64,000 nucleotides of DNA from NCBI RefSeq assembly GCF_005405465.1, contig NZ_BJEC01000010.1, positions 1 through 64,000 of the forward strand. The letters run 5' to 3'. The translations under genes were made by a program, and so were the position numbers. The notes beneath the pieces are model-generated. The model ran no database searches, was not told the origin of the DNA, and worked only from the letters and a program-made list of their open reading frames with translations. This DNA is from Weissella thailandensis (lineage in GTDB: Bacteria > Bacillota > Bacilli > Lactobacillales > Lactobacillaceae). Positions 23,506-61,725 of the stretch are shown one piece after another (the first letter of the stretch is position 1; each line of letters begins with the position of its first letter).

Positions 23506-24339
23506 ATGGGTGAACAATTAAAATATTTAACTGTACCTGAGGTGCAGAAAATCATGTTGACTATTCTGGCTGACATGATTAAATATTTTAATGAACATAA
23601 TTACCATTATGTCTTAACGGGTGGTAGTGCCTTAGGGGCGGTCCGTCATCAAGGATTTATTCCTTGGGATGATGACGCCGATGTGGCATTACCGAGAGAC
23701 GAATACGAAAGGTTCATTCGTGAGTATCGACCATATAATTCACAGTATGAATTGTTAACCCCGTATAACACTGAGAATTGGTTGTATGCTTATGCGCGGG
23801 TGAGTGATACGCAGACGCAAGCTGATGGTAAATGGGCACTTGTGCATAATGGCGTTTATGTGGATGTTTTTCCGATTGACGCGGTACCAAAATCTAAAAT
23901 CGGCCAAAAAATGGCGTACTATCGGATGAAGTATCTTGATGTGATGCGTAATTCAACTCGACGAATCGCTATTTCAAAACAAGAACCCGGCTGGTGGTTG
24001 AAACCACTGCTTATTAAATATGCGCAACGGCATACGACGGGGTGGTGGGTGCAACGCATGGATAAGTTAGCGCAAAAGATGAATCAACGCCATGTTGCGT
24101 GTTCAAATATCTATAGTTTGTACATTGTCCAGGGATTGAATAAAACAAGGGAAAATTTTCCACTAGCTGTTTATCAACAACGACAATCAGTCCCGTTTGA
24201 AAGTTTAACTGTCTACATACCGGCAGCTAGCCAATATTATCTTACCCAGATGTATGGTAATTGGCAGGCTCTGCCACCAAAAAAGAAACAAAAAACGCAT
24301 GCCCGTTTTTATAATAAAGGAGTAGAAGTACATGATTAG
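23506..24339 (+). CDS. LicD-family phosphotransferase
   Basis: The 277-residue protein carries the LicD/nucleotidyltransferase-like signature TGGSALGAVRHQGFIPWDDD with the catalytic Asp pair, followed by DVALPRDEYERF and VDVFPIDAVP. LicD proteins attach phosphocholine or a related phospho-group to teichoic or capsular sugars; the donor here is unknown. It opens the long wall-polymer operon and overlaps the next gene by eight bases. The start ATG is preceded by a weak GGGGTATTGGA site. Confidence 0.88.
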   Translation: MGEQLKYLTVPEVQKIMLTILADMIKYFNEHNYHYVLTGGSALGAVRHQGFIPWDDDADVALPRDEYERFIREYRPYNSQYELLTPYNTENWLYAYARVSDTQTQADGKWALVHNGVYVDVFPIDAVPKSKIGQKMAYYRMKYLDVMRNSTRRIAISKQEPGWWLKPLLIKYAQRHTTGWWVQRMDKLAQKMNQRHVACSNIYSLYIVQGLNKTRENFPLAVYQQRQSVPFESLTVYIPAASQYYLTQMYGNWQALPPKKKQKTHARFYNKGVEVHD

Positions 24340-25210: not shown

Positions 25211-26491
25211 ATGGTTGAAAACAAAGTAACCGTTGCAGCAAATCATGTCACGAAGCGCTTTGATTTAGCTGAACGACAATCAGATAAAGTGAAAGCTGTC
25301 TTCAAATTTTGGGGAAAAGGTATTCCTAATTTTTGGGCAGTAAAGGGTGTGTCCTTTGAAGCACATGCCGGTGAAACCATTGGGGTAATTGGAACCAACG
25401 GGTCAGGTAAATCAACCTTGCTAGAAATGGTAGCGGGATTGACCCAACCAACCAGTGGGCAAATGACCATCAACGGCTCAACTTCAATCATTGCGATTGG
25501 GGCGGGGATGCGTCCCAAATTAACTGGGCGCGCTAATATTCGTTTGAAGGCCTTAATGCAAGGAATGACGGAAAAAGAAATTGAAGCCAAGATGGATGAC
25601 ATCATCGAGTTTTCTGAGCTAGGTGATTTTATTGACCAACCGGTTAAATCATATTCATCTGGTATGAAATCTAAGCTAGGTTTCGCCATTTCAGTTTATT
25701 CTGATGCTGATATCGTCATTATTGACGAGGCCCTCTCTGTGGGTGATCCGACGTTTACGCAAAAATCAATGGAACGTACGAAGCGCTTTAAAGAAGGGGG
25801 TAAGACAATATTCTTCGTGTCGCATTCTGCGGCACAAATGCGTCAAATGGCAGATCGTGTGATTTGGATGCACTATGGTGATATCCGGATGGATGGCCCA
25901 ATTGACGAAGTGATGCCAGAATACGAGCGTTTCTTAAAGCATTTCAATCGTTTTTCAGAAAATGAACGTCTGGCGTATCAAAAGCGTTATAAAGAAGCGC
26001 AAAAAACATTTACGCTAGGACATCTAAAGCAGCTAGAACGTAATCGCCAAATGTTATTGGATCCATCCACAGCTTTGAAACGACAAAAAGAAAATGAACA
26101 GTTCTTTACTGAAGGTAGTGAGAAGATGGGGTGGTTCACTCGTATTTTCTTGCTTGTCATTACGATATTGACGGTGGGATTGATGAATAAGCAATTGTTA
26201 AACATGTCATGGGCTAATGTAGCAGCACATCCGACGCATTTGATCACGAACTTTGCACCGTCAAAATTGGCACAGTTAAACCAACGTCATGGACGTACGG
26301 GAAGTAATGAACGTGCTGAGACACCTGTTTACTCGGCAACGCAAAATACGTATACGGTCAAAGATGGTGAAACGTTGGCTGGTATTGCCGAGAAAGCAAA
26401 TATTTCGATTGAGGCGATTATGCAAGCAAATCAAATGACTGATCAAGTGGTCAATCCGGGGCAAGAAATTATTTTGCCGGTTGAGAGGTAG
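25211..26491 (+). CDS. tagH: Teichoic-acid ABC transporter ATPase TagH-like, with C-terminal LysM
   Basis: The 426-residue protein has a full ABC ATPase: Walker A GTNGSGKST, the signature region YSSGMKSKLGFA and Walker B VIIDEALSVGD. A membrane helix follows near residues 312-332 and a LysM domain closes the protein (TYTVKDGETLAGIAEKANIS, about 380-424). B. subtilis TagH also has an extra C-terminal part across the membrane, but of SH3 type; here LysM would face the wall. With the TagG permease six bases downstream it should export the completed polymer to the cell surface. Confidence 0.93.
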   Translation: MVENKVTVAANHVTKRFDLAERQSDKVKAVFKFWGKGIPNFWAVKGVSFEAHAGETIGVIGTNGSGKSTLLEMVAGLTQPTSGQMTINGSTSIIAIGAGMRPKLTGRANIRLKALMQGMTEKEIEAKMDDIIEFSELGDFIDQPVKSYSSGMKSKLGFAISVYSDADIVIIDEALSVGDPTFTQKSMERTKRFKEGGKTIFFVSHSAAQMRQMADRVIWMHYGDIRMDGPIDEVMPEYERFLKHFNRFSENERLAYQKRYKEAQKTFTLGHLKQLERNRQMLLDPSTALKRQKENEQFFTEGSEKMGWFTRIFLLVITILTVGLMNKQLLNMSWANVAAHPTHLITNFAPSKLAQLNQRHGRTGSNERAETPVYSATQNTYTVKDGETLAGIAEKANISIEAIMQANQMTDQVVNPGQEIILPVER

Positions 26492-26496
26492 TTATT

Positions 26497-27321
26497 GTGA
26501 AAGATATTTGGAAAATTTTTAAGGAATTAGTGAAGAGTTGGCCGGTAATGCAACGAATCGCTCGTTACAATAATGATCAGACCTACCGGGAAAACTATCT
26601 GGGAGATTTTTGGCACTTCGCTGATCCACTTTTACAGATTGGAATTATGGTTTTAATGTTCGCAATCCGTAATGGTGGTGATAAAGGTAATCCGCATGCA
26701 ACTGGCTTGGCAGGATATATTGCTTGGATTGCATTGGGAATGGTTACTTATTTCTTTATGCAGTCAGCGATGAGAAAGTCAGCAAAAAGTATCCAATCAC
26801 AAGTTAATATTCTATCGCGAATGAAGTTTTCGCTGTCGGCGATCCCAATGACTGAAATTATCACTGAATTACGACGATATTTCGTCATGTTGGGAATTGC
26901 TTTTTTTGCAATCTTGTTCATGAATGTTAAACCATCCATTTATTGGCTACAATTTTTTTATTATTTCTTTGCGATGATGGTGTTCTTATATGCATTATCG
27001 TTGGTGACGTCAACTATTACGGTATTAGTTCCAGACTTTTATAATGCCTATGCAGCGATCTTACGTGTCGGAATGTGGATTTCTGGAGTGATTATTCCGG
27101 TTGATAGTCCCAATTTCCCACTATTGTTGTCAAATGCATTGAAATTAAATCCATTGTATTACATTATTCAAGGATTTAGAGAAACGTTGTTAGAAAACCC
27201 GATTTGGTTCTGGCATAATATTACGGCCAATCTATTGTTCTGGGGGATTGTGCTTATTCTCCTCACAGTTGGTGCACATATCCATATGCGTTTCCGTAAT
27301 CGTTTCATGGACTTTGTATAA
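26497..27321 (+). CDS. tagG: Teichoic-acid ABC transporter permease TagG-like
   Basis: The 274-residue protein has six hydrophobic segments of the ABC-2 permease type and the family pattern YLGDFWHFADPLLQIGIMVLM near the N-terminus, with NPLYYIIQGFRE before the last helix. It pairs with the adjacent TagH-like ATPase to flip the undecaprenyl-linked polymer across the membrane. The start is GTG, closely following the ATPase gene. Confidence 0.93.
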   Translation: MKDIWKIFKELVKSWPVMQRIARYNNDQTYRENYLGDFWHFADPLLQIGIMVLMFAIRNGGDKGNPHATGLAGYIAWIALGMVTYFFMQSAMRKSAKSIQSQVNILSRMKFSLSAIPMTEIITELRRYFVMLGIAFFAILFMNVKPSIYWLQFFYYFFAMMVFLYALSLVTSTITVLVPDFYNAYAAILRVGMWISGVIIPVDSPNFPLLLSNALKLNPLYYIIQGFRETLLENPIWFWHNITANLLFWGIVLILLTVGAHIHMRFRNRFMDFV

Positions 27322-27788: not shown

Positions 27789-28526
27789 ATGAGTAATCAA
27801 GTAAAAATCATTATTGATAAGTTAGGCGCTGATGAAGTTAAGACAATAAAACGTTATATAGATAATTTGCGTCAACTGATCGGTTCTGATTTTACATTGA
27901 CGATTTTAGATCCACGGTATAAAGGCGACTATAACCAGTTGATTAATGAGTATGAAAAGCTTTCGGGTGACTTCCCGAACATAAAGATTGAAAGTTTCTA
28001 TGTGTCACAATATTTGAAGAGCAATCGACGCGACAACGTCAATCAATTTACACAAGACTATATTGGCAACCAAAAATTTACTGTTAAAAAGAAAGGCGGC
28101 CAACGCCTTTTTATGCAAGATGGTGAAGTACGGATTGCCATCATTAATAATAAAGCTGGTAAAGTCACGGCGGTTGACTTTGCTAAGCCAGGTCAAAAGA
28201 AACCGCACCAACGTGTCTCGGTTAATGCTGCTGGTAATATTCAAGTGTTACGTCATTTTGATGATAAGACCCATTTGCCAGTTGTTGATGAGTATTTAGA
28301 CACGGACTTAAAGACACAGTTGACAGTCCATTTTGATGAGCGTGGTTTACGCTCAGATTATCAGCTAGTTGGTTGGGATGAACCCGTAGTATATAGCGAA
28401 GTCGATTTATATGAACAGTGGTTTAATCGTATTATTCAACCAGATGATTATGTGATTAATATGAATCGCCACTATGATGTGTTATTTGAACATCAGCATG
28501 ACGTGACCAAAGTCTTTCTAATGTAG
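27789..28526 (+). CDS. Protein resembling glycosyltransferase accessory (EBD-type) region, no catalytic domain seen
   Basis: The 245-residue protein has an alpha/beta N-terminal part (KIIIDKLGADEVKTIKRYID ... NIKIESFYVSQYL) and then a run of beta strands with repeated aromatic/acidic turns (VLRHFDDKTHLPVVDEYLD, LTVHFDERGLRSDYQL, WFNRIIQPDDYVI). This looks like the N-lobe plus beta-meander of GtfA-like GT4 enzymes that glycosylate wall polymers or adhesins, but the C-terminal nucleotide-sugar lobe is missing. It may be a partner subunit for the giant enzyme encoded next. Assignment is an inference from pattern only. Confidence 0.5.
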   Translation: MSNQVKIIIDKLGADEVKTIKRYIDNLRQLIGSDFTLTILDPRYKGDYNQLINEYEKLSGDFPNIKIESFYVSQYLKSNRRDNVNQFTQDYIGNQKFTVKKKGGQRLFMQDGEVRIAIINNKAGKVTAVDFAKPGQKKPHQRVSVNAAGNIQVLRHFDDKTHLPVVDEYLDTDLKTQLTVHFDERGLRSDYQLVGWDEPVVYSEVDLYEQWFNRIIQPDDYVINMNRHYDVLFEHQHDVTKVFLM

Positions 28527-28545
28527 TGATTGGGTGGCAATTGAG

Positions 28546-31500
28546 ATGGATTTGAAGAAAAAAGTAAAACGTGTTGCACATATTTCAGAGGTTGCCATGA
28601 CTTATCGGTACTCTGACTTGAAAAAAACACGCGAATATTATATACGCCATTATGATCAGGCTACGGTTGATGATCAGGTAGTATTGTACGAAGCCCGTGA
28701 TGGGCAGTCAATGACGGATTCCCCATTAGCAATTTTTCGTTATCTGAGTTCTCATGCACAGTATCAATATCTGCAACATGTGTGGGTCGTGACGGATGAC
28801 AGCCCAGAAAATCTGGCAAAAATGGTTGCGAATGTACCGTCTGATGTGCAGTCCAAAATTATTTGGGTGAAGCGCAATACGATTGCCTATGCGAAATGGT
28901 TACTAAAGGCAAAGTTTTTGATTACCAATTCAACATTTCAGTCGTTTTGGCATAAGAAGCCAGCGCAAGTTTATCTAAATACTTGGCATGGTACGCCGTT
29001 GAAATATATGGGTTATGATATTCCTGGTTCAAAGACTTCCTTAAAAAATGTGCAACGTAATTTATTAATGGCGAATTATATTATTTCACCGAACGCCCAT
29101 ACATCGCATGTGTTTTTAGATCGTTATAAATTAAATGGCTTGTACCAAGGCGAAGTGCTTGAGGGTGGCTATCCGCGGATTGATTTGACTTATGCGCATG
29201 AGCAAAAAAGTACTCTGGCATATTTGCAACAAAGTGGTGTGCAACTAGATTTAACGCAACTCATTGTCATGTACACACCAACCTGGAAGGGAACGTCAAT
29301 TACAAACCCATCTGGGAGCATTCAGCAAATTTATGAAGAGATTAAGCAATTAAAACAGTTAAATCCTGATAAAAATATTTTGGTTAAAGTACATCCATAT
29401 GCTTATCCATTGGCTAAACGTCATGAAGGGTTACGCCCATATTTAGTGCCGGATGAAATGGATGCTAACTTGATTTTAGGAATCACTGATGTCTTGATTA
29501 CTGATTATTCAAGTATTTTCTTTGATTATTTAGTGACTGATAAACCAGTTATTTTCTATGCTTGGGACCATGAATTATATAGTAGTTATCGTGGCATGTA
29601 TTTTGATGATAATGAGTTACCTGGTCCAATTTTAGATGATATTGAATCAGTAGGACATGCATTGCAGCATACTAATCAAATTAGTGAACATTATCAGCAC
29701 AAATATCAACAAATTAAAGAAAAAGTTGTCCCATACGATGATGGTCAAGTCACTACTCGCATCGTTCAAACAGTCTTTAATCAACAAACAGTGTCAGGTG
29801 TAAAGCATATCCCAGCAAGTGGCTTGGATAAGACAAAATTGCTGATTTATCCCGGTGGTATGGGAAATAATGGGATTACGACTAGTGCCATCAATTTAAG
29901 TCATCATATTGATTATGATAAATACGATGTGACATATTTGTTGTGGGACAACGATAATGAAGAAATTATCAATAACGTTGCGCAGTTAGATGAACATGTG
30001 CGCATTATGTACCGCTTTGGGGTCACTGCCTTAACCCGTCCGGAACATCGACAAGACCGTTATGTCAGTGAACATGGAATCAAACGTTGGTCTGATACGA
30101 ATATTCCAAAAATTGGTTACCAACGTGAAGCAGATCGATTATTTAATAGTGTTCAATTTGATACATTGGTTGACTTTTCGGGATACTCATTTAACGGCTC
30201 AAAGCTATTTGCGGTCATGCCTAGAAAGCAATTGGTTGTTTATCAACATAATGATTTATACACCGATTCACAGAAAGTAATTAATGGTAAGCAAGTGCAT
30301 GCCAAGAAGTTAGGCGCTTTATTTACGCTCTATCAAGTTTTCGATAAAATCGTTTCTGTTTCGGAAACTTTAAAGCAAATCAATGAGAAGAAGCTGTCAG
30401 AATATGTTCGGCCAGAACAAATGGTGGCAGTGCCAAATTCATTGACGCTACCTACAGAGGTAGATCAGCAAGCAGATAATTTACCTGTTATTGAAGATTA
30501 TCAAGCGGCTGCAACTATGCGTGTACAGGATGTTGAGATGTATATGTCTTTGGCGGATATTGCACAGGGTGTAACCGTTATTAAAGCAGTCAATCGTAAT
30601 GATCATATTCGTGTTCTTGGGCGAGCCCGCATTAATCAGCAAACATTCTACAAGCTTGCGATAAATGACTTACCAAGTGGTTGGGTTGCTGCAAAGTATG
30701 TCGATGTTCAGGAAGTTAATGAATTATTGTACCAAGAACCAGCTCATCAAATTGGTTGGGTGTATAACAATAAGCGACGTCTGTTCCAGACACCATATTT
30801 AAAAGGTGAAGATACTAGTGATGTCATTGGCCAGGCAAAATGGTTAAACCATACTTTTGTCAAAATTGTTGCACAAGCTGAAACGGGGGATGGTCGATAT
30901 TACCAAGTCCAGCTACCAAAAAGTCAGCAATTAGCTTGGTTAAAGGCGTCAAGCATCTTACCGATGCAGTCCGCATCGAAGTTTGCCTTTTATCAATGGT
31001 TATGGAACAGAATGTCTAATAAAGTTACTGAACAAGTATATAATGTTGGTGTCAAACAACTATTTATGATTAATCATGAGGTTGTCTTGACTAATCAACC
31101 ATTAGGGTTGGGTAAACGCGGGATTAAACAACGCCAGTTAAAAACGGTTAATAGACTTTATTTAGCAACGGCATTCGCCCAAACGACGACAGGTAATTAT
31201 TACCGAGTGAAAGTCGGTCAAAAACAATGGTGGCTTGCTGAAAAAGATATGAATAAACAATCTATTGATGTGTTACTGACGAATAACTATCACGTCAATT
31301 TGAGTGACTATCTAGATGTACCTGTTAACCAATCATTAATTTTTAACCGGACCAGTGAACAGATGATTCGTTTACATTTCAATACTTTACCGGATGATTT
31401 GGTAATGGTGGCTGGTTATCGAACTACCCTGTTAGTTGATAATCAATCAGTTTATCAACTATACTCTGAAAAGTTTGATGAGTCGGTGATGGTACCAGTA

Positions 31501-32535
31501 AATGAGGTATTTGTGTTAGATACGACACACTTTGATGAGGTGTATGCTGTCAGCGGGGACATCATGGTTGCTTATCAATCAATGTTATTAAGTCAGGAGC
31601 AACAACAGATAGTGGTGACAAATCATATTGTGGAATTAGCTCGGGTATGGAATTGGCAAACGCAAGCGTTTATGATTTATGGTCAGTTGGATAATCAATA
31701 TGGTTGGTTTGATGAATCGGTATTAACAAATGATCATATGAAACCACTGTCTGTGCAAGAAAAAATGCTACCTGATGAACAATCAGGTGTGAAACTAGCA
31801 GCTGATGTGTTGCCGGTTGATGAGATTCAACCAGTTTCTAAAATTGACCAACCATGGATTACACGAAAAATTTCTGTATGGGATGATGATAAACATTACA
31901 CACAATTGCTTCGACAAAATGGACAAACTATTTTGCTGTCCGATACTGGGGATGCAGTATTAGCTGCGGATGTCCAACAGGCAGTTTCAGACTCTTTGCT
32001 GTATCAAAATGGTCGTCAGTGGGCGACGTATAGTCATTTTGTTTTTGTGGCTGTTGGTCGTTTGTCACCTGAAAAGAATCAAACAATGCTATTAGATGCT
32101 TTTGCAAGGGTTTATGCAAAACATCCAGAGGCTGAGTTAATTATCATTGGTGATGGCGTTATCCGTGATGAATTGGAGAATAAAGCTATGCAGTTGGGTA
32201 TTGCCAATGTTGTCCTATTTACTGGGCAAGTTGATAATCCTGCGGACTACTTGGCATTGGCCGATGTTTTCGTACATCCATCACTTTATGAAGGTCAACC
32301 AATGGTTTTGCTAGAAGCTTTAATGCAGCAACGGTTAATTGTGGCAACTAATATTGCGGCGAATGTTGGTGTGATAGGTAACCAAGAGTATGGTTTAGTA
32401 ACGCAGGATGTGACTGCAACTTCATTTGCGCAATTAATGTTGTTTACCATAGAGAATCAGACTAAATTAGAAAAATTTGATATTAACGTTTATCAAGAAC
32501 AGGCGCGCCAAGCGTTTAATGCTATACTGAAATAA
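28546..32535 (+). CDS. Giant TagF-type glycerophosphotransferase / GT4 glycosyltransferase fusion with internal SH3-like modules
   Basis: In this 1329-residue protein residues ~1-420 are a CDP-glycerol glycerophosphotransferase domain (TWHGTPLKYMG, KVHPYAY, LITDYSSIFFDYL). Residues ~426-630 are the N-lobe of a GT4 enzyme (LLIYPGGMGNNGITT ... VSVSETLKQIN). Residues ~655-1105 are a run of SH3/GW-like modules, each closing with a Trp-containing turn (SGWVAAKYVDV, LAWLKASSIL, WWLAEKDM, YGWFDESVL). The GT4 C-lobe follows from ~1160 (VAVGRLSPEKNQ, EGQPMVLLEAL). The modules are therefore inserted between the two lobes. It should extend and glycosylate a glycerol-phosphate polymer. ATG chosen with GGGTGG upstream. 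Confidence 0.85.
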   Translation: MDLKKKVKRVAHISEVAMTYRYSDLKKTREYYIRHYDQATVDDQVVLYEARDGQSMTDSPLAIFRYLSSHAQYQYLQHVWVVTDDSPENLAKMVANVPSDVQSKIIWVKRNTIAYAKWLLKAKFLITNSTFQSFWHKKPAQVYLNTWHGTPLKYMGYDIPGSKTSLKNVQRNLLMANYIISPNAHTSHVFLDRYKLNGLYQGEVLEGGYPRIDLTYAHEQKSTLAYLQQSGVQLDLTQLIVMYTPTWKGTSITNPSGSIQQIYEEIKQLKQLNPDKNILVKVHPYAYPLAKRHEGLRPYLVPDEMDANLILGITDVLITDYSSIFFDYLVTDKPVIFYAWDHELYSSYRGMYFDDNELPGPILDDIESVGHALQHTNQISEHYQHKYQQIKEKVVPYDDGQVTTRIVQTVFNQQTVSGVKHIPASGLDKTKLLIYPGGMGNNGITTSAINLSHHIDYDKYDVTYLLWDNDNEEIINNVAQLDEHVRIMYRFGVTALTRPEHRQDRYVSEHGIKRWSDTNIPKIGYQREADRLFNSVQFDTLVDFSGYSFNGSKLFAVMPRKQLVVYQHNDLYTDSQKVINGKQVHAKKLGALFTLYQVFDKIVSVSETLKQINEKKLSEYVRPEQMVAVPNSLTLPTEVDQQADNLPVIEDYQAAATMRVQDVEMYMSLADIAQGVTVIKAVNRNDHIRVLGRARINQQTFYKLAINDLPSGWVAAKYVDVQEVNELLYQEPAHQIGWVYNNKRRLFQTPYLKGEDTSDVIGQAKWLNHTFVKIVAQAETGDGRYYQVQLPKSQQLAWLKASSILPMQSASKFAFYQWLWNRMSNKVTEQVYNVGVKQLFMINHEVVLTNQPLGLGKRGIKQRQLKTVNRLYLATAFAQTTTGNYYRVKVGQKQWWLAEKDMNKQSIDVLLTNNYHVNLSDYLDVPVNQSLIFNRTSEQMIRLHFNTLPDDLVMVAGYRTTLLVDNQSVYQLYSEKFDESVMVPVNEVFVLDTTHFDEVYAVSGDIMVAYQSMLLSQEQQQIVVTNHIVELARVWNWQTQAFMIYGQLDNQYGWFDESVLTNDHMKPLSVQEKMLPDEQSGVKLAADVLPVDEIQPVSKIDQPWITRKISVWDDDKHYTQLLRQNGQTILLSDTGDAVLAADVQQAVSDSLLYQNGRQWATYSHFVFVAVGRLSPEKNQTMLLDAFARVYAKHPEAELIIIGDGVIRDELENKAMQLGIANVVLFTGQVDNPADYLALADVFVHPSLYEGQPMVLLEALMQQRLIVATNIAANVGVIGNQEYGLVTQDVTATSFAQLMLFTIENQTKLEKFDINVYQEQARQAFNAILK

Positions 32536-32560: not shown

Positions 32561-33007
32561 ATGAAAAGAATTATTACTTATGGAACGTTTGACATGTTGC
32601 ACTATGGTCACATCAATTTATTGCGTCGGGCAAAGCAATTAGGTGACTATTTAATTGTCGTTCTGTCATCTGATGAGTTTAATTGGGATTCAAAGCAAAA
32701 GAAAACGTATTTTTCTTATGAAAAGCGTAAGCAATTATTAGAAGCTATCCGTTACGTTGACTTGGTTATTCCAGAGAATAGTTGGGATCAAAAAGTTTCT
32801 GATATGAAAGAGTATCATGTGGATACTTTAGTTATGGGGGATGACTGGGCAGGTAAGTTTGACTTTATTGAAGAGCAAACAGACACAGAAGTCGTTTACT
32901 TACCACGTACGCCAGAAATTTCAACATCACAAATCAAAGATGACCTAAATAAAAAGAAATTGGCCACAAGTGTGGATACCTCAAAAATTGATGTTTCAGG
33001 GAACTAG
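32561..33007 (+). CDS. tagD: Glycerol-3-phosphate cytidylyltransferase
   Basis: TagD makes CDP-glycerol, the donor for all glycerophosphotransferases in this window. The cytidylyltransferase signature GTFDMLHYGHINLLRRAK (HxGH) is at the N-terminus, with RTPEISTSQIK, the conserved ISTS-x-IK motif, near the end. At 148 residues it is slightly longer than the usual ~130 because of a Lys/Ser-rich tail. TAGGAG precedes the ATG. Confidence 0.96.
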   Translation: MKRIITYGTFDMLHYGHINLLRRAKQLGDYLIVVLSSDEFNWDSKQKKTYFSYEKRKQLLEAIRYVDLVIPENSWDQKVSDMKEYHVDTLVMGDDWAGKFDFIEEQTDTEVVYLPRTPEISTSQIKDDLNKKKLATSVDTSKIDVSGN

Positions 33008-36737: not shown

Positions 36738-39700
36738 ATGATAGTGAAAGAATTTAATTATACCCCAAAAGGGAATCTGGATTTTATAGATGATACTGGT
36801 CAAGATGTAACTGGTGAAATAAACATACTTTTTCCATCAGGAAAAGTAATAAATAATTTTAATCATAAATATATTAAAATTCCAGAAGAAATGTGGGGAT
36901 ATAGAGAAGTTACTTTAACGGATAAGCATGGACGCCAACTTTTTTTTGATGATAGTCTTATAAATACTTATTTTACTAATGAAACTGAACAAACGCTCAA
37001 ATATGTTTTTTTCCGTGCAGATGTGATGTGCTTTGGAATCTATCCCAATAATGATAATAAGTTAATAAATTTAAATAAAAAAGAAAAAATTTTTTTTGAA
37101 GGTAATTATCTAGGAGTAAAAGTGCCTTATAAAATGGAGATGCCGTATTTTTTTGAAGTTTTCACAGAGAATTCGGTTAACCTAGTTAATTATAGAAAAA
37201 AGTCAGATAATGAGTACCTGCTGGACTTAACGTCAATTGATTTGAATGAGATTAAATCAATTTATTTTAAAGATTATAAGTTTAATCGTCAAATTAACTA
37301 TTGTATATATGAAAATAAAGACGAAGCCTATCAACAAATAGAGAATTCAAAATATGATCAAGTAAAATTAGAATTTACTGAAGATGAAAGATTTTCTAAC
37401 AAAAATGATTGTCAATTAATGGGGCAGTTAGGTGAAAATCATTTTAGTATAGATGAAAATTTTAGATTAGATGAATCTTTTCTAAAGGAATATAGAGATA
37501 AAAGCGATAAATCGTTGGAAGTTTTTGAAATTAAGCAAGGAAAAATTTCACAAGTGAATTATAGTATTTCATCTAACCTTAAGAAAAGCAATCTGTATTA
37601 CCTCTTCAAAAATAATATTATAATTTTAGGATCTAGAGTAGTTACAGGTGACTTGAAGAAAAAAATTGTGGCCGCTGAGCCTTTAAAGGTGAGCTTAGAA
37701 AGCGCTTCTGATAAATATATTGAGTTAGTATTTCCTGAAAAAATTTGGACATTACAAATTATTACAACTTCAAATAACTTGAAGGGGCCTTTTTCTGAAA
37801 TACCTAATAATATAATAGAGAACAAGGTGCATATAGAATTTAATGATGTTTTTAATGATTTGGGTGTTGTTAATGGCGTCAGGAATATGAATATATTCGC
37901 AAATGTTAGTTTTGAAAATGAAAGAAGTTCTAGTCTTTATAAATTACAGTTAGCTAACAATAATGGAATTAATAAGTACCAATTATTTGATAATAGGAGA
38001 CCTTTACCTGGTGGTGTAGGAAAGTATCAGCAATATATCCAGGTTTTTAAACAAGAAAATACAGATTTAATTTTCTTAAAGGGGCCATTACATAATTTAG
38101 TTAACAAAACATTTAATTTAGAAGCACAAGTTAAATCTTTAAAAAGGGAGCAAGATAGTTATAAACTTACTCTTCAAGTAGAGGGTGAACTTCTTGATAA
38201 GTGTAATATTCAGTCTGTTAGGTTAATAAACAGAAATATTCTCAATCCTAAAGAAAATGATTACACTGTAAATATAATATCTGAAAATGAAGATTCAGTT
38301 GTAATTGACTCAATTATAGACTTAGAACACAGCTATATTCCATTTTACTGGGATTTGTTTGTCGTTTTAGGAAATGAAAATATTAATTTACCAATTCAAG
38401 TAAGCAAATTGACAGATAGTGTTAAAGATTTAGTTGATGTGGATGTCTTTGAAAAAGAGATAAGAACAGCAGTAAACACAATTTTATATCCATATGTTAC
38501 TGCTGGTGGATCATTAGCATTTACCTATAGAAATATTGAGCCGTATGAAAATGAAGTAAATTTCAATAGAGAGATTAAAGCTTATAATGTATACAATCAT
38601 TTTAAAAAATATTTAGATAAAAAAAACATTTGGATAGTTTTTGAAAAGAATAGTTTTGGGGCGCATGATAATGCCTTTCACTTTTTTAAATATATGTATG
38701 AAAATGAAAAGCATCCCAATACTTATTATGTAATCAGAAAAGATTCTCCTGAGTATAAAAATTTGAGTAAAATGCAGGATAGAGTTCTTGTTTATATGAG
38801 TTTTAAATACTTTTTGTATATGTTTTCTGCTCGTGTATTTATTTCGTCAGACACTAAATTTCATGCATACAATTTGCAACGCAGAGACTCATTGTTAGCT
38901 AAGTCTATGTTACAAAAGAAAAATGTGTTCTTGCAGCACGGAATGAATGGAATAAAAAAAGTACCGGTTTTTCATAAAAAAAGAGGCCTTTTAGATTTGA
39001 TAATAGCGCCCAGTGATTTTGAACGCGACAATATAAATATAAAAAAATGGGGATATTCTCCAAATGAAGTTGTTGCAACAGGGTATGCTCGATGGGATTC
39101 ATATATAGATAAGACTGATGAATTATCATACCATCAGATATTTATGATGCCTACCTGGCGTAAATCAATGGAGGGTATGAGTCGTGAGGAATTTTTAAAA
39201 ACAAGGTTTTATAAAGAGTATCAAGCCTTTTTAAAATCACCTAAATTAAAAGAGGTTTTGAAAGCGAACAACACTAGACTTGCATTCTTTTTACATCCAT
39301 ATTTTAAAAATTACGTTGATCTTTTTGATATTGATGAAAGTTTTACTGATAAGTATGGGTATCTAGATGTAGATATGGGAAATGAAATCATGAAGAGTTC
39401 AATGATGATTTCAGACTATTCAAGTGTTGTTTGGGATATGTTCTATTTAGAGAAGCCAGTAATATTTTATCAGTTTGATCAGGAAGATTATTTGAAAAGT
39501 GAAGGCGCTTATCTAAATTATGAAAAAGATTTGTTTGGAGATGTTGTCTTTAATTCTGATCAAGCAGTAGATTCCATTATTAAGTATGTTGAAAATGGTT
39601 TTTCCGAAGAAAATCAGTATTCAGCTATGCGTAAAAAATATATGAACTTTCACGACCACCAGAATTCCGAAAGAATTTACCAGGCTATTTTGAGCAAGAA

Positions 39701-39806
39701 AAAATTATTAGGTATAGAAAATAAGTGGACGTTGTTGAGAAGGGTTTCAAGGAAGTTGTGGAAACTAAAGAAAAAAATTTTAAACTATAATTCTAATACT
39801 AACTAG
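36738..39806 (+). CDS. TagF-like CDP-glycerol glycerophosphotransferase with long N-terminal region (paralogue 1)
   Basis: The 1022-residue protein has its catalytic domain at the C-terminus (from ~610): AHDNAFHFFKYM, YYVIRKDSPEY, LQHGMNGIKK near residue 730, MMPTWRKSMEG, LHPYF and SDYSSVVWDMFYLEKPVIF near 892. These are the Glyphos_transf motifs with the two His needed for catalysis. The first ~580 residues are beta-rich with no family recognised. It should transfer glycerol phosphate from CDP-glycerol to a growing polymer at the inner membrane face. The next gene encodes a protein of the same layout. Confidence 0.88.
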   Translation: MIVKEFNYTPKGNLDFIDDTGQDVTGEINILFPSGKVINNFNHKYIKIPEEMWGYREVTLTDKHGRQLFFDDSLINTYFTNETEQTLKYVFFRADVMCFGIYPNNDNKLINLNKKEKIFFEGNYLGVKVPYKMEMPYFFEVFTENSVNLVNYRKKSDNEYLLDLTSIDLNEIKSIYFKDYKFNRQINYCIYENKDEAYQQIENSKYDQVKLEFTEDERFSNKNDCQLMGQLGENHFSIDENFRLDESFLKEYRDKSDKSLEVFEIKQGKISQVNYSISSNLKKSNLYYLFKNNIIILGSRVVTGDLKKKIVAAEPLKVSLESASDKYIELVFPEKIWTLQIITTSNNLKGPFSEIPNNIIENKVHIEFNDVFNDLGVVNGVRNMNIFANVSFENERSSSLYKLQLANNNGINKYQLFDNRRPLPGGVGKYQQYIQVFKQENTDLIFLKGPLHNLVNKTFNLEAQVKSLKREQDSYKLTLQVEGELLDKCNIQSVRLINRNILNPKENDYTVNIISENEDSVVIDSIIDLEHSYIPFYWDLFVVLGNENINLPIQVSKLTDSVKDLVDVDVFEKEIRTAVNTILYPYVTAGGSLAFTYRNIEPYENEVNFNREIKAYNVYNHFKKYLDKKNIWIVFEKNSFGAHDNAFHFFKYMYENEKHPNTYYVIRKDSPEYKNLSKMQDRVLVYMSFKYFLYMFSARVFISSDTKFHAYNLQRRDSLLAKSMLQKKNVFLQHGMNGIKKVPVFHKKRGLLDLIIAPSDFERDNINIKKWGYSPNEVVATGYARWDSYIDKTDELSYHQIFMMPTWRKSMEGMSREEFLKTRFYKEYQAFLKSPKLKEVLKANNTRLAFFLHPYFKNYVDLFDIDESFTDKYGYLDVDMGNEIMKSSMMISDYSSVVWDMFYLEKPVIFYQFDQEDYLKSEGAYLNYEKDLFGDVVFNSDQAVDSIIKYVENGFSEENQYSAMRKKYMNFHDHQNSERIYQAILSKKKLLGIENKWTLLRRVSRKLWKLKKKILNYNSNTN

Positions 39807-39840
39807 ATAGAATTATAAATGGGTGAAAGGTGTAAATAGA

Positions 39841-42732
39841 ATGATTAGAATAGAAAAATTCTTATTTTCAGCAGAGGAAATTTATTTACAATTTTCTGAA
39901 GATATTTTTGTAGAACAAGTATATGCAATCAATAAAATGGGGGACAAGTATTTTGTTCCTTTAAGAAAAACAAGTTCTGGTCAAATTACATTATTCCCCT
40001 TGAATGAGTTGCCAGATTATGGTATGTACAGTTTTTTACTTATTGACAGCAATGGTAATGAATATCAATCTGTGTTTAGCGATGATGTAGACCGTGCTAT
40101 AGTTGGCAATCAGGCTAGTAAATGGAAATTTTCCAATGATAAAAAGTTTTTTATACAGAGCAAACGTCCTTCTATATCAAAAAGTGAAAGGGATATAGTT
40201 GTACTTGAGAAAAAATTTGAAAACGGTTTATTAGATTTACGTCTACCTAAAAAAATAGAAATTAGTAGTCCAGAGATTTGGGTAAGGAAACAGGAGAAAA
40301 CGAATCAAGCATTGTTAGATAGCTTTTATTTGCCTGTAATGTTTAAGAATCATCACTTAATTATTGATGTACGCAATATTACTTTGGATAAGGATGTTAA
40401 ATACTATCTTTTCTTGAAGCAAGCGGATATTTTTTACAGACTCTATGCTCCTAAGATGAAAACGGAGCTTAATAAATCGTCAAGGTATATTGAAATTGGT
40501 GAGAATCTTGGATTTGCTAACTATTTTTATTACACTATTCACAATAGATTGGCGTTAGTATCTATTTCTGTTAAGAAAGCTCATGCGCTTGATTTACAAA
40601 AAATGGACTACCATAATAATCCATATGCCAGACATTATTTGCCTCAAATGAACGGTAATATTAACGTTATGGATGTGGCAGGGTTACATCAGATTGATAA
40701 TTATAGTTATAAATTAAGGTTAAAGAATAATAATCAAAAGTTTAATAAATTATTTTTAGTTGATACGAATAAGAGTCAGTTTGTTGGGATTCCGTATAAT
40801 CAAGTTCAAGAAGATATTTACTTATACTTACATGATGCGCTAGATTCTTTTAAAGACTATGAATCAAAATTAAAATTACTGGGAATTTATTCTGATAGAC
40901 ACTCGTTGTTTAATCTTACTTATTTTCGTATCGGAGACTTAAAAAATCACCCGGGCTACTTGAGGTACTATAATGCAGTTGATTTCAATGTGACAGAAAA
41001 CAATATGGCTAGTCGCTTCTTTATTAATGATAATGGCGTAATTTCTGTTCATAATAAGTCTAAATTTGCTTTGGATAGAAAAGAGAGAAAATTACCTTTA
41101 TCGCTAACTGTTGATCATATTAGTCAGGTGCATAAAAAATTAGTAATTAATTTATTTTTTAATTTGAAGCTGTTGCCATGGATGAATAAGATACAGATTC
41201 TAGATATTTATTTGTACAAAACTGCTTTCATTAATGAACATCATAAACTTGATATTATTGATTTAGACTTTGATAAACAAAATATAAAAGTTACTTCTGA
41301 TATAGGAAATTTAATTTCACATGATGAGTATGGGTATTATAGGATTGCTTTAAAACTTAAAATTAACGACAAAATTTTTGATATCAAGGTCAATATGCCT
41401 TCTTCAGATTTAAAAAAAGAATTATCCCAGGGAAGAGTTATGTACAAAGATAATGGAAGGACTATTTTTCCATCTGTTGAGGGTAATACATTAAGCTTAA
41501 TTGCAGATAATCTTGTTGATATTGATAATAAACACAATATACACCTAGAAAAGCGGTATACAAATCTTTTTAAAGAAAATAAGATACATTTTACTCCTGG
41601 TACATTTATAATTTTTGAAAAAGAAACAAATTTTGCACAAGATAATGCTTTTGCTCTATTCGAGTGGGTTCAAAAACATGATCCAGATAATGAAATGTAT
41701 TATGTAATTAGAAAAGATAGCCCTCAAGCGGATAAACTCGTTAAGTATCCTAACAGAGTTTTGTATACAGGTACACAGAAGTATTATGAAATGGTTACTA
41801 AAGCACACATGCTTGTATCTAGTGATAGCCCTCTTCATTTGGTTGGTGATGTGAATAGACGCAATGCATCACCTTTTTATAAAGAAGTGATCATGAAAAA
41901 GCCATTTATTATGCTACAGCATGGTGTAACAGCAATGAAAAGCCATGCTAGTAATAAGCCTTGGAACGTAGCTTCAGGAATGATTGATTACTTTGTTGTA
42001 ACTAATACCTTAGAACAAGAGGTTGTGCATCAAAGTATGGGGTATTCGTATGAACAATTACCAATTCTAGGATTTTCCCGTTGGGATTTGTTTGGAGAAA
42101 ATACTTTAGTTGAACAGCAATTTAATAACAAAATTATTTATGTTCCTACCTGGCGACAATGGCTAAATAAGGCAACAGATGAAGAATTTGTGAAAAGTGA
42201 GTACTATCAAAAGATTAATGAGTTACTGGAAAATAAGAAATTGAATGATATTTTGAATGAGCATGACACCGAGTTTTATGTTTATTTGCATCCATTTATG
42301 CAACGACTTACACATAATTTAAATTCTAGTAATTCAAGGATTCATATTTTATCTAGTGATAATTATGACTTAGGAGATTTGTTGAGAGGGGCATCATTAT
42401 TAATTTCTGATTATTCATCAGTTGTATGGGATTTTGCTGTACAAAGAAAACCTGTGATTTTTTATCAATTTGACAAGTCAAGGTATTTAAAAAAGGTCGG
42501 TTCATTAGTGGACTTAGATAATTTACCAATCGGAGAATCCTATCAATCAAGTGATCAAGTTGTTAATAAGGTTTCTTATTATTTGGATAAAAATTTTGAA
42601 ATTGACAAAGCTACTGAAAATAATATTAATTCTATTTTTGGATCGGATGTACAAGAATATTCTAAGAACATATATGACTTTATAAAAAAAGTTTCTAACG
42701 AATATATGTATACAATGTGGAGTAAAAAATAA
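39841..42732 (+). CDS. TagF-like CDP-glycerol glycerophosphotransferase with long N-terminal region (paralogue 2)
   Basis: The 963-residue protein repeats the layout of the preceding one: a beta-rich N-terminal half and a C-terminal catalytic domain with YYVIRKDSPQAD, LQHGVTAMKS near residue 693, VPTWRQWLNK, LHPFMQ and SDYSSVVWDFAVQRKPVIF near 856. The two are clearly paralogous but diverged; one may prime and one polymerise, or they may act on different acceptors. The start is the ATG with GAAAGGTG upstream. Its stop overlaps the next gene's ATG. Confidence 0.88.
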   Translation: MIRIEKFLFSAEEIYLQFSEDIFVEQVYAINKMGDKYFVPLRKTSSGQITLFPLNELPDYGMYSFLLIDSNGNEYQSVFSDDVDRAIVGNQASKWKFSNDKKFFIQSKRPSISKSERDIVVLEKKFENGLLDLRLPKKIEISSPEIWVRKQEKTNQALLDSFYLPVMFKNHHLIIDVRNITLDKDVKYYLFLKQADIFYRLYAPKMKTELNKSSRYIEIGENLGFANYFYYTIHNRLALVSISVKKAHALDLQKMDYHNNPYARHYLPQMNGNINVMDVAGLHQIDNYSYKLRLKNNNQKFNKLFLVDTNKSQFVGIPYNQVQEDIYLYLHDALDSFKDYESKLKLLGIYSDRHSLFNLTYFRIGDLKNHPGYLRYYNAVDFNVTENNMASRFFINDNGVISVHNKSKFALDRKERKLPLSLTVDHISQVHKKLVINLFFNLKLLPWMNKIQILDIYLYKTAFINEHHKLDIIDLDFDKQNIKVTSDIGNLISHDEYGYYRIALKLKINDKIFDIKVNMPSSDLKKELSQGRVMYKDNGRTIFPSVEGNTLSLIADNLVDIDNKHNIHLEKRYTNLFKENKIHFTPGTFIIFEKETNFAQDNAFALFEWVQKHDPDNEMYYVIRKDSPQADKLVKYPNRVLYTGTQKYYEMVTKAHMLVSSDSPLHLVGDVNRRNASPFYKEVIMKKPFIMLQHGVTAMKSHASNKPWNVASGMIDYFVVTNTLEQEVVHQSMGYSYEQLPILGFSRWDLFGENTLVEQQFNNKIIYVPTWRQWLNKATDEEFVKSEYYQKINELLENKKLNDILNEHDTEFYVYLHPFMQRLTHNLNSSNSRIHILSSDNYDLGDLLRGASLLISDYSSVVWDFAVQRKPVIFYQFDKSRYLKKVGSLVDLDNLPIGESYQSSDQVVNKVSYYLDKNFEIDKATENNINSIFGSDVQEYSKNIYDFIKKVSNEYMYTMWSKK

Positions 42733-59985: not shown

Positions 59986-61725
59986 ATGCATGCTAGTGCA
60001 ATAAAGAAGGGATGTTATTACCTTATTCCAGGCTTAGTTTTCGCAATTATCTTAGCCTATGTCGGCCGGTTTGGCTTTTTATATGCAGGAGCGGATTTAC
60101 AATTCCATGCTAGTCGTATATTTGAATTTTATCAACATATCAAAAATGGTAATTTGATACCAGTTATCTCAACATTTTCTGCTAATCAAATTGGTAGTAT
60201 CGTACCAACTATGTACCCGTCATTCCCGGTTTATATCGGGACGGTATTGCAGTTTATTTTCCCACCAGTAACAGCAATGTATGTGTTGATGTGGGTGCAA
60301 CTAATAACCCAGTTCAGTATTGCCAAGTGGGTCAGTAAAGAATTAGGCCTGTCACTAACAGAAAGCACCATGGCAGCGTTTATTTATACAATGGCGACGC
60401 CAACATTATCTCAAGTTATTCAGCAATGGTTATTTGGTGAAGTTTGGGCGATGTCGTTTATGCCACTAGTGTTACTGGGATTAATTAGGTTGGCTAAAAC
60501 AACGACTGATAATGTGGTGAAATTGGATAAAAAAACCATTTCATTATTAGTCATTGGTTTTACTTTGGTTGTTTTGTCTCACGTACTGTCATTTGCAATC
60601 GTTGCAGGTTATACAGCACTTTTCACGTTGTTTTTATTAATTTTCCGAAAAAATCGCTGGAATGTGTTAGCTAATTTGGCAGTTGCTGCGGTAATCACGA
60701 TTCTATTGTCATTGGTATTCTTAATGCCATTCATTATTGCTATGCTAGGGAATACATTGGCAACCCCAGCAGCAACAGAGTTAACTATCTGGGCAGCACC
60801 AGATTGGCATGAGTTCGTGAAAGCAACCTTTACCATTGCTGCTGATGCTCGTTTTAAAACAAACACAGTTGGAATTATTGCTTTCCTAGCCATCTTCGGT
60901 GTGGTATTAACTTGGCGTAAACAGGATCGTTTTACAAAAATTGCGACGCTGGTATCAGTCGCTGTTATTTTTAGTGGCTCAAGTTATGTTTGGAATTACT
61001 TGTATGATACGAAGCTAGGTGTTATTCAATTCCCACACCGTGTCTTCATTATTGCTATCTTCTTGCTTAGTGTCAGCGCAATTTTGGCAATTCGCAACGT
61101 CATTAGTAAGAAATGGCTACAACAAACGATTTATATCGGATTAGCACTATTTTCATTTGCTTTTGCCGTATTTAACATCAAATATGGCTTTGTCGATCGG
61201 GTCAATGCTTTAGCAGTGCAAACCGATTATAAGTCAACGGCGAAGCATCCGGTCAGTTATGCACCGATGGCGAATTTTAAAGTAAACAATGATGACTTTG
61301 AAAATTTGATGGGTTATTGGGATACTTATGGTGCGTTTGACTACCTGCCTGAGCATGTCGATTTTAATAAATCATTACAGAAAAAGGCAATCGTTCAGAA
61401 CCATGAGTTACTACAGACCAAAGCAACCTCTGAACCTAATGGCCTGATGTATCAGGCAAAGTTAGCTAAGAATACAAAAACGACCATTCCGATGGTTGGT
61501 TATCAAAGTTTGAACTATGAGATTACTGATCAAAATAACCATCGGTATCAATACAAGATAAATAAGAATAAGCAGTTGGTTATTAAGACAACGAATCATC
61601 CAGTAAGTCGCTTGACTGTTCATGCAAAAACACCAGTAACGACTTATGTTGCTTGGGCAATTAGTTTAGCAACCGGTACTGGATTGATCATTTATATTAT
61701 CTGGTATAAACGTCGTAAAGCATAA
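59986..61725 (+). CDS. Polytopic membrane protein, 6-PTPS-related/YfhO-like glycan membrane protein
   Basis: The 579-residue protein has about 11 membrane helices (from residue 10 to ~390), a large extracellular segment and a final helix. ADLQFHASRIFEFYQHIKNG after the first helix matches the so-called 6-pyruvoyl-tetrahydropterin-synthase-related membrane proteins of LAB, which have a GT-C-like layout and are thought to glycosylate surface polymers. Function is inferred from that layout and its TagB-like neighbour. AAGGAG precedes the ATG. Confidence 0.75.
   Translation: MHASAIKKGCYYLIPGLVFAIILAYVGRFGFLYAGADLQFHASRIFEFYQHIKNGNLIPVISTFSANQIGSIVPTMYPSFPVYIGTVLQFIFPPVTAMYVLMWVQLITQFSIAKWVSKELGLSLTESTMAAFIYTMATPTLSQVIQQWLFGEVWAMSFMPLVLLGLIRLAKTTTDNVVKLDKKTISLLVIGFTLVVLSHVLSFAIVAGYTALFTLFLLIFRKNRWNVLANLAVAAVITILLSLVFLMPFIIAMLGNTLATPAATELTIWAAPDWHEFVKATFTIAADARFKTNTVGIIAFLAIFGVVLTWRKQDRFTKIATLVSVAVIFSGSSYVWNYLYDTKLGVIQFPHRVFIIAIFLLSVSAILAIRNVISKKWLQQTIYIGLALFSFAFAVFNIKYGFVDRVNALAVQTDYKSTAKHPVSYAPMANFKVNNDDFENLMGYWDTYGAFDYLPEHVDFNKSLQKKAIVQNHELLQTKATSEPNGLMYQAKLAKNTKTTIPMVGYQSLNYEITDQNNHRYQYKINKNKQLVIKTTNHPVSRLTVHAKTPVTTYVAWAISLATGTGLIIYIIWYKRRKA

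Follow-up and report, generated by a model that had tools for sequence, protein, structure and literature searches.

Within a 64,000-nucleotide stretch of Weissella thailandensis DNA (contig NZ_BJEC01000010.1, positions 1 to 64,000; hereafter the window), an open reading frame (ORF) at 28534..32535 of the forward strand encodes a protein of 1333 amino acids (aa) in which a TagF-type glycerophosphotransferase domain is followed by a GT4 glycosyltransferase whose two lobes are held apart by a long insert of GW modules. We read this protein as an alternating, two-headed polymerase of a type II-like wall teichoic acid (WTA), in which the GW array would tether the product and thereby favour processivity, a joint reading that we consider moderately likely. 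What the analysis itself shows is the layout of the protein, the single closed GT-B fold of the model, the GW identity of the first modules, the intact catalytic motifs, the wall-polymer gene context, and the conservation and length series of the insert.

Each of the parts is known, and it is their combination that appears to be new, as no description of a GW insert between the GT-B lobes of a TagF-GT4 polymerase was found in the open-licence PubMed Central (PMC) literature. The first-pass annotation of this DNA had likewise known of no enzyme with such a layout, which holds for the GW-inserted form, whereas the fusion of TagF and GT4 parts as such has been described (PMC5974469, PMC11666461). 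The main text of the 2018 paper on that family (PMC5974469) contains no words beginning with SH3, Lactobacill- or Enterococc-.

Domain layout and structure models

The ORF begins with GTG; an alternative ATG lies four codons inside it, at 28546, and was taken as the start in the first-pass annotation, the residue numbers of which are the present ones minus 4. The TagF-type domain (28651..29781, forward strand; residues 40-416) matches PF04464, Glyphos_transf, at 4.7e-85 and with 286.2 bits passes the curated Pfam threshold of 22.1, while the score against the TarF equivalog NF041712 (163.4 bits) stays below its cut-off of 550. The domain carries H152 in HGTPLK, H287 in KVHP and TDYSS at 323-327, and the two histidines match the TagF active-site residues H444 and H584, an equivalence drawn from the motifs and not from a superposition of residues. 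The N-lobe of the GT4 enzyme (29821..30459, forward strand; residues ~430-642) is without a Pfam match in the Weissella protein and is recognised by its colinearity with Cps3D and by the model, in which the lobes align as a single GT-B. The C-lobe (32029..32532, forward strand; residues ~1166-1333), with which the protein terminates, matches PF00534, Glycos_transf_1, at 1169-1320 (5.1e-31). It contains R1176, K1181 and the EX7E pair E1253/E1261, so that the enzyme shows both the GT-B fold and the C-lobe R/K and EX7E motif of GT4.

In a phmmer search of the PDB, query residues 33-628 and 1162-1332 were colinear with Cps3D (8qoy; E 5.3e-103), and since the two stretches lie 27 residues apart in Cps3D (943 to 971) and 533 apart here, the middle region (30460..32028, forward strand; residues ~643-1165) has to be regarded as an insertion. 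Its entry point is the inter-lobe hinge of the GT-B fold, just past 'VPNSLTLP' (from residue 633) and ahead of 'VFVAVGRLSPEK' (from 1170). As it is kept in five other Weissella species and in 46 further ORFs, it can be explained neither by an assembly accident nor by chance. The Glyphos_transf match and the colinearity with Cps3D thus bear out the earlier proposal that a TagF-type domain is fused ahead of a GT4 enzyme, and the order found, a TagF domain and then a single GT-B glycosyltransferase in one chain, is that of Cps3D-kind polymerases. No membrane segment was detected in the protein (top 19-mer hydropathy 1.26), and an extracellular enzyme was ruled out on the grounds that a hydrophobic segment is absent and that the domains depend on nucleotide substrates.

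Residues 426-1333 were modelled with AlphaFold2, template-free and with a 45-row alignment, which gave a mean predicted local distance difference test score (pLDDT) of 79.3 and a predicted template modelling score (pTM) of 0.53. By blocks of ten residues, pLDDT was mostly 82-91 in the N-lobe, 76-96 in the C-lobe and mostly 76-91 in the modules, and just 26-63 in model residues 651-740 (window residues 1076-1165). With VIA-align, whole GT4 enzymes superpose on model residues 7-908: BshA (6n1x) with a Z of 32.5 over 345 of 377 residues at a root-mean-square deviation (rmsd) of 3.5, TarM (7qd7) with a Z of 31.2 over 349 residues at 15% identity, and the CgaT domain of Cps3D (746-1137) with a Z of 27.6 over 378 residues at 30% identity. 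As modelled, the two lobes close into a single GT-B and the middle is looped out, which is how the first-pass annotation had supposed that they might fold. Because of its low pTM, this model does not determine where the array lies with respect to the lobes. A relative with three modules, L059 (1114 aa), was modelled over its full length (pLDDT 86.6, pTM 0.75); 761 residues of that model could be aligned with Cps3D (Z 40.5, rmsd 3.1, 33% identity), and both catalytic heads are therefore predicted to keep the mutual arrangement that they have in Cps3D.

The inserted modules and their relatives

Three modules of the Weissella insert, all on the forward strand, can be named from the sequence, and the model suggests five or perhaps six, the sixth being doubtful, which agrees with the several SH3/GW-like modules seen at first pass. 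Module M1 (30487..30711; residues ~652-726) has its GW at 716-717, with W717 unchanged across 45 aligned insert-bearing rows, and a weak SH3_3 match at 682-724 (0.0055) that is below the Pfam cut-off. M2 (30724..30966; residues ~731-811) matches the GW family PF13457 at 738-808 (6.6e-8) and passes its cut-off with 33.6 bits against 21. M3 (31036..31260; residues ~835-909) is supported by the model and by an iterated module profile (E 2e-9), a profile that is circular after round 0 and was used solely to name modules, not to count them. The SH3-like modules M4 (31267..31521; residues ~912-996) and M5 (31537..31746; residues ~1002-1071) gave no sequence match to the module profile and are proposed from the structure model, in which both show the beta pattern, with block pLDDT of 71-90 and mostly 81-91, respectively. 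They are followed by a probably disordered linker (31750..31854; residues ~1073-1107; block pLDDT 26-39) and a possible, partial sixth module of low confidence (31858..31962; residues ~1109-1143), whose strands have block pLDDT of about 39-63.

A profile was built from modules one and two of 36 relatives and matched five PDB sequences at E <= 1, namely Listeria Lmo1076/Auto (5jqc; 1.5e-31, in three stretches), InlB (1m9s; 2.1e-13) and three yeast transcription factor tau subunits (0.25-0.35), the last of which look like chance. The Auto structure is also the second Foldseek match of the Weissella model (6.2e-11) among the matches listed, which were top-ranked rows obtained with multi-domain models rather than single modules as queries. 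Of 45 insert-bearing GT4 parts, 42 match the Pfam GW family at E <= 0.01 (best 5.5e-42); one relative has three stretches individually above the GW cut-off (L070), one has a match below it (L084), and two have none (L107, L019). Judged by its sequence, the middle region consists of genuine GW modules. It is under constraint, albeit looser than that on the catalytic parts: in four Weissella pairs dN/dS was 0.08-0.27 in the insert parts as compared to 0.03-0.10 in the TagF part and the lobes; several of these values come from nearly saturated synonymous sites (dS up to 2.2).

Among 83 fused TagF-GT4 ORFs that were measured, duplicate copies of one protein from two sources having been merged, the lobe anchors stand 205-551 aa apart in 52 (46 loci) and 8-89 aa apart in the other 31 (29 loci), with no ORF between 89 and 205. 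This set leaves out five entries with unmeasured gaps (G529:C5:821, G136:C38:14420, G929, G968 and G945:C1:136286) and one locus (L115, G652) at which no ORF holds all three parts. The distance is 518 aa in the Weissella protein and nearly constant, at 515-518 aa, in the five other Weissella species. Across the long class, lengths fall at 205 (two ORFs), 293-325, 348-394, 407, 471, 515-518 and 551 aa, groups that fit two, three, four and more modules of about 80 residues, and the tryptophans of the inserts are often 80-84 residues apart. For the 36 distinct lengths the best lattice is ~81 residues and beats 1994 of 2000 uniform draws; with all 52 rows, in which kin are not independent, it is 75.

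Loose patterns for HGTPxK, TDYSS, GRxSxEK, EX7E and HND occur somewhere in all 52 insert-bearing ORFs and a KVHP-type pattern in 50, whereas the corresponding numbers for the 31 insert-less ORFs, which are more divergent, are 26, 29, 20, 21, 25 and 25. A quick tree, from which the insert was left out, requires three changes of the insert character as compared to a shuffled mean of 25.1, and its strongly supported branches force just one; a single gain of the insert with few losses is possible on this tree. The clade holding Staphylococcus nepalensis lacks the insert in 11 of 11 rows, each with 28 aa between the anchors, and the other rows are taken as staphylococcal from the S. nepalensis locus (L045) lying among them. 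Two insert-less ORFs (L020 46-1455, L089 4157-6016) lie, with weak support, inside the insert clade, and a TPR in exchange for the insert was considered for them; their N-terminal extensions (~460-600 aa) gave nothing useful in Pfam (RICH at 0.03 only) and show no mutual similarity.

A search with the whole protein at E <= 1e-60 covered 395 genomes drawn from the order, 398 from the class and 348 from the phylum, some genomes recurring between draws, and gave matches, with or without the insert, in 40, 18 and 3 of them, respectively. The insert alone found 10 of 397 genomes within the family, one of them weakly (G207, in which 76 residues within a frame of 303 aa match at 6e-4). Named Weissella bearers of the insert are W. 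paramesenteroides, W. fangxianensis, W. hellenica, W. sagaensis and W. bombi, and on plasmid records it occurs in Enterococcus gallinarum (two in tandem), E. lactis and Peribacillus sp. Paired insert-bearing polymerases in one locus were observed in L042 (11905-18747), L067, L071, L064, L081 and L088, and the insert lengths differ within some tandem pairs (300/352, 295/354 and 293/354). Such tandem polymerases perhaps serve two polymers, one each, or two steps.

Gene neighbourhood

A gene for TagD, the glycerol-3-phosphate cytidylyltransferase that makes CDP-glycerol (32561..33007, forward strand), starts 26 bases downstream of the polymerase end and passes TIGR01518 with 210.7 bits against 165.4. 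Upstream on the same strand, 25211..26491 encodes the TagH-like ATPase of a teichoic-acid exporter with a C-terminal LysM (3.7e-12), whose matches to NF010065 (2e-93) and NF010066 (3.4e-79) are below the equivalog cut-offs (313.9 bits against 538 and 265.9 against 320). It is followed by a TagG-like ABC-2 permease (26497..27321, forward strand; PF01061, 2.4e-12), which is without an NCBIfam match at 1e-10 and owes its name to its position beside TagH.

Among relatives on loci of at least 12 kb, TagA-like genes accompany 27 of 45 insert-bearing polymerases (26 of 44 when the locus of the query is left out) and 1 of 21 insert-less ones, TagG-like genes 30 of 45 and 6 of 21, and TagD-like genes 14 of 45 and 5 of 21, counts that are uncorrected for kinship and limited by locus length. 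Counts for TagB and TarF, the queries for which can match the TagF domain of the polymerase itself, were not used, nor were those for galU and for galE and GMD, the latter two being SDR queries that gave identical counts (13 and 7). The E. gallinarum polymerases sit behind genes annotated as CDP-glycerol glycerophosphotransferases and WecB/TagA/CpsF. On the Peribacillus plasmid pD (L043 6675-12733), galU, the polymerase and galE stand in a row, hinting at UDP-glucose or UDP-galactose as the donor.

Several further genes of the window belong to the same surroundings. A LicD-family protein (23506-24339) adjoins the exporter. In Actinobacillus pleuropneumoniae the LicD-family protein CpsC makes the poly(glycerol 3-phosphate), or poly(Gro3P), primer for a Cps3D-type polymerase, and by analogy such a pair of LicD protein and polymerase may recur in the Weissella cluster. 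Two large proteins (36738-39806 and 39823-42732) have a C-terminal TagF-type domain after about 600 residues in which no convincing Pfam family was found, and neither 27789-28526 (245 aa) nor 59986-61725 (579 aa), of the same cluster, shows a recognisable Pfam family.

Tethering, its alternatives and known systems

We infer the alternation, the sugar, the product and the tethering as follows. The protein would belong to the TagF-like/GT-B polymerases and make teichoic acid in the cytosol with two heads, of which the TagF head would transfer glycerol phosphate from CDP-glycerol, while the GT4 head would transfer a hexose from a nucleotide sugar, probably in alpha linkage. Taking turns, the two heads would extend a lipid-linked chain at its non-reducing end, and the resulting poly(glycosylglycerol phosphate), a WTA resembling type II, could be exported by the neighbouring TagGH. 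The GW array in the GT4 hinge might bind the newly made glycosylated chain and retain it at the active sites, resulting in processive elongation, and the affinity, and perhaps the typical chain length, would rise with the number of modules. Here we depart from the first-pass annotation, which had sugars added onto a glycerol-phosphate chain, since TagF-like/GT-B capsule polymerases are a known family in which the sugar is placed in the backbone by alternation and not onto a finished chain (PMC5974469, PMC11666461).

That the GW array holds the polymerase's own growing product is probable by analogy, and a product tether is the best reading of the modules because they sit in the hinge of an enzyme predicted to make glycosylated teichoic acid and because LygA, Auto, InlB and Bcs3 provide precedents. 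Direct binding to galactosylated WTA is known for the GW domains of LygA and Auto, LygA having a dissociation constant (KD) of 1.54 uM as compared to 7.61 uM without galactose (about fivefold), and the surface retention of LygA drops as modules are removed (PMC10335673). Retention of InlB in L. ivanovii depends on glucosylated WTA (PMC8297528). The lipoteichoic acid that the first-pass annotation had named is among the ligands of GW modules, but glycosylated WTA is equally supported (PMC10335673) and one study points to peptidoglycan (PMC4944223). One could go further and speculate that the internal GW array reads the repeat made by GT4, that module number and sequence set recognition, processivity and length and vary by gain and loss of modules, and that this is the missing type II WTA polymerase; in this full form the idea is tentative and rather improbable.

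Several observations weigh against tethering of a WTA product. The ligand of GW modules is not settled, since a purified GW(Ami) fusion bound peptidoglycan that lacked WTA (PMC4944223) and for the SH3b domains of Acm2 from L. plantarum, binding to the glycan of peptidoglycan has been reported (PMC4155827). Bcs3 offers an analogy only, its SH3b domain being unmatched by the GW profile at E <= 1. The Weissella insert is acidic (isoelectric point 5.36, -2.3 net charge per 100 aa), which speaks against simple binding by charge. Over the 52 insert-bearing ORFs the net charge changes sign, running from -3.9 to +3.5 per 100 aa, so that retention of a polyanion by electrostatics is not common to them, and a basic insert charge was dropped as a shared trait. 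In addition, the insert evolves faster than the lobes, mostly 1.5 to 3 times, and 31 of the 83 homologs manage without it. A PF03808 (WecG/TagA) protein, for which a B. subtilis control was positive, was not found in the Weissella genome, so that the anchoring pathway is not the textbook one and the linkage unit, if any, would be made otherwise. TarF/TarB-like, TagD and TagGH-like genes are nevertheless present in that genome.

Among the alternatives, it is conceivable, although we regard it as unlikely, that the GW array leaves the polymer untouched and instead serves protein-protein contacts or dimerisation, or attaches the polymerase to other wall enzymes or to the exporter. In Cps3D, contacts between tetratricopeptide repeat (TPR) regions help to form the dimer, and the TPR is required for processivity and for the use of poly(Gro3P) (PMC11666461), a role that the array could fill in the Weissella protein, which has no TPR, as just ~30-35 aa precede its TagF domain; the more frequent TagG-like genes at insert-bearing loci point the same way. 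However, the closest solved relatives of the modules are GW modules that bind the cell wall, one review cites the view that steric hindrance excludes SH3-like activity of GW modules (PMC4010754), and all partial-TPR truncations of Cps3D were still dimeric, the active ones being more distributive (PMC11666461).

It is likewise improbable, to much the same degree, that the two heads do not alternate and the TagF head makes a poly(glycerol phosphate), which the GT4 head decorates in the manner of TarM while the GW modules hold the chain. The Z of the GT4 part with TarM is above that with the Cps3D domain, and the other TagF-type genes of the window (36738, 39823 and 58755) leave room for this reading. 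The sequence is far closer to Cps3D over both heads, as seen with L059, and Cps3D has the sugar in its backbone.

A molecular ruler, in which the modules spanned by the growing chain before its release set the chain length, appears more doubtful still. The grouped insert lengths, with their ~81-residue lattice, and the often unequal tandem paralogs would be expected of such a device, but the lengths of relatives are not independent, insert-less homologs exist, and the same facts are explained by tethering without any counting of length. Finally, that the lobes stem from two different enzymes or that a known GT fold includes the middle, which the first-pass annotation had named as fatal to its proposal, has next to no probability: Pfam alone sees just the C-lobe, no other support was found, and both versions are excluded, as far as modelling can, by the BshA superposition and by the insert-less homologs, in which 8-89 aa lie between the same lobes.

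Returning to the tethered, alternating polymerase, its relevance lies in the type II WTA, the synthesis of which was described as little known in the 2018 study of TagF-like polymerases, where the role of homologues was also asked (PMC5974469). Located beside TagD and TagGH-like genes, and in relatives often beside TagA-like ones, the GW-insert polymerases are direct candidates for it. Since nature offers one conserved catalytic frame with 0, 2, 3, 4 and more modules, lactic acid bacteria could serve to put polymer tethering, processivity and the control of chain length to the test. GW modules serve as surface anchors outside the cell. The same modules are now met in a predicted cytosolic synthase.

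The known systems each share some of these features. Enzymes of the TarM, SdgB and GtfA type have the GT4 GT-B fold in common with the Weissella protein, but are single enzymes that are not known to have TagF or GW parts and that carry an extra domain of their own within the N-lobe. The staphylococcal TagF-GT4 fusions of 771-870 aa (for example that of the S. nepalensis plasmid, L045) represent the same fusion, with a TagF part that is 40-44% identical, and have no insert. Auto and InlB of Listeria contain homologous GW modules by profile, in surface proteins, whereas those of Weissella lie inside a predicted cytosolic enzyme and are not basic overall. The GW modules of InlB are strongly basic.

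Bcs3 of H. influenzae type b (8a0c, 8a0m) is likewise a TagF-like polymerase bearing an SH3-fold domain, and its SH3b domain holds polymer in the crystal, its disruption abolishes activity, and tethering has been proposed (PMC10299916). As described there, it has one SH3b near the C-terminus after CriT, plus a phosphatase domain, and neither a GW array nor one inside a GT-B. The Bcs3-type layout (CrpP phosphatase, CriT, C-terminal SH3b) is absent from the Weissella protein, in which TagF is followed by just the GT4 enzyme with its insert.

The closest counterparts are Cps3D and Cps7D of Actinobacillus pleuropneumoniae (8qoy), whose two catalytic domains are of the same types and follow each other in the same order. 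Cps3D depends on its Gro3P- and Gal-transferase domains acting in turn and is processive (PMC11666461). It has a long N-terminal helical/TPR region and a short link between the lobes, in contrast to the Weissella protein, which has no N-terminus of TPR size and carries ~520 residues of GW modules at that position; a terminal TPR is reported for most but not all TagF-like/GT-B polymerases and is therefore not a defining trait of the kind. The difference extends to the setting, as Cps3D and Cps7D make capsule, while the Weissella polymerase belongs to a Gram-positive organism and to a teichoic-acid gene cluster.

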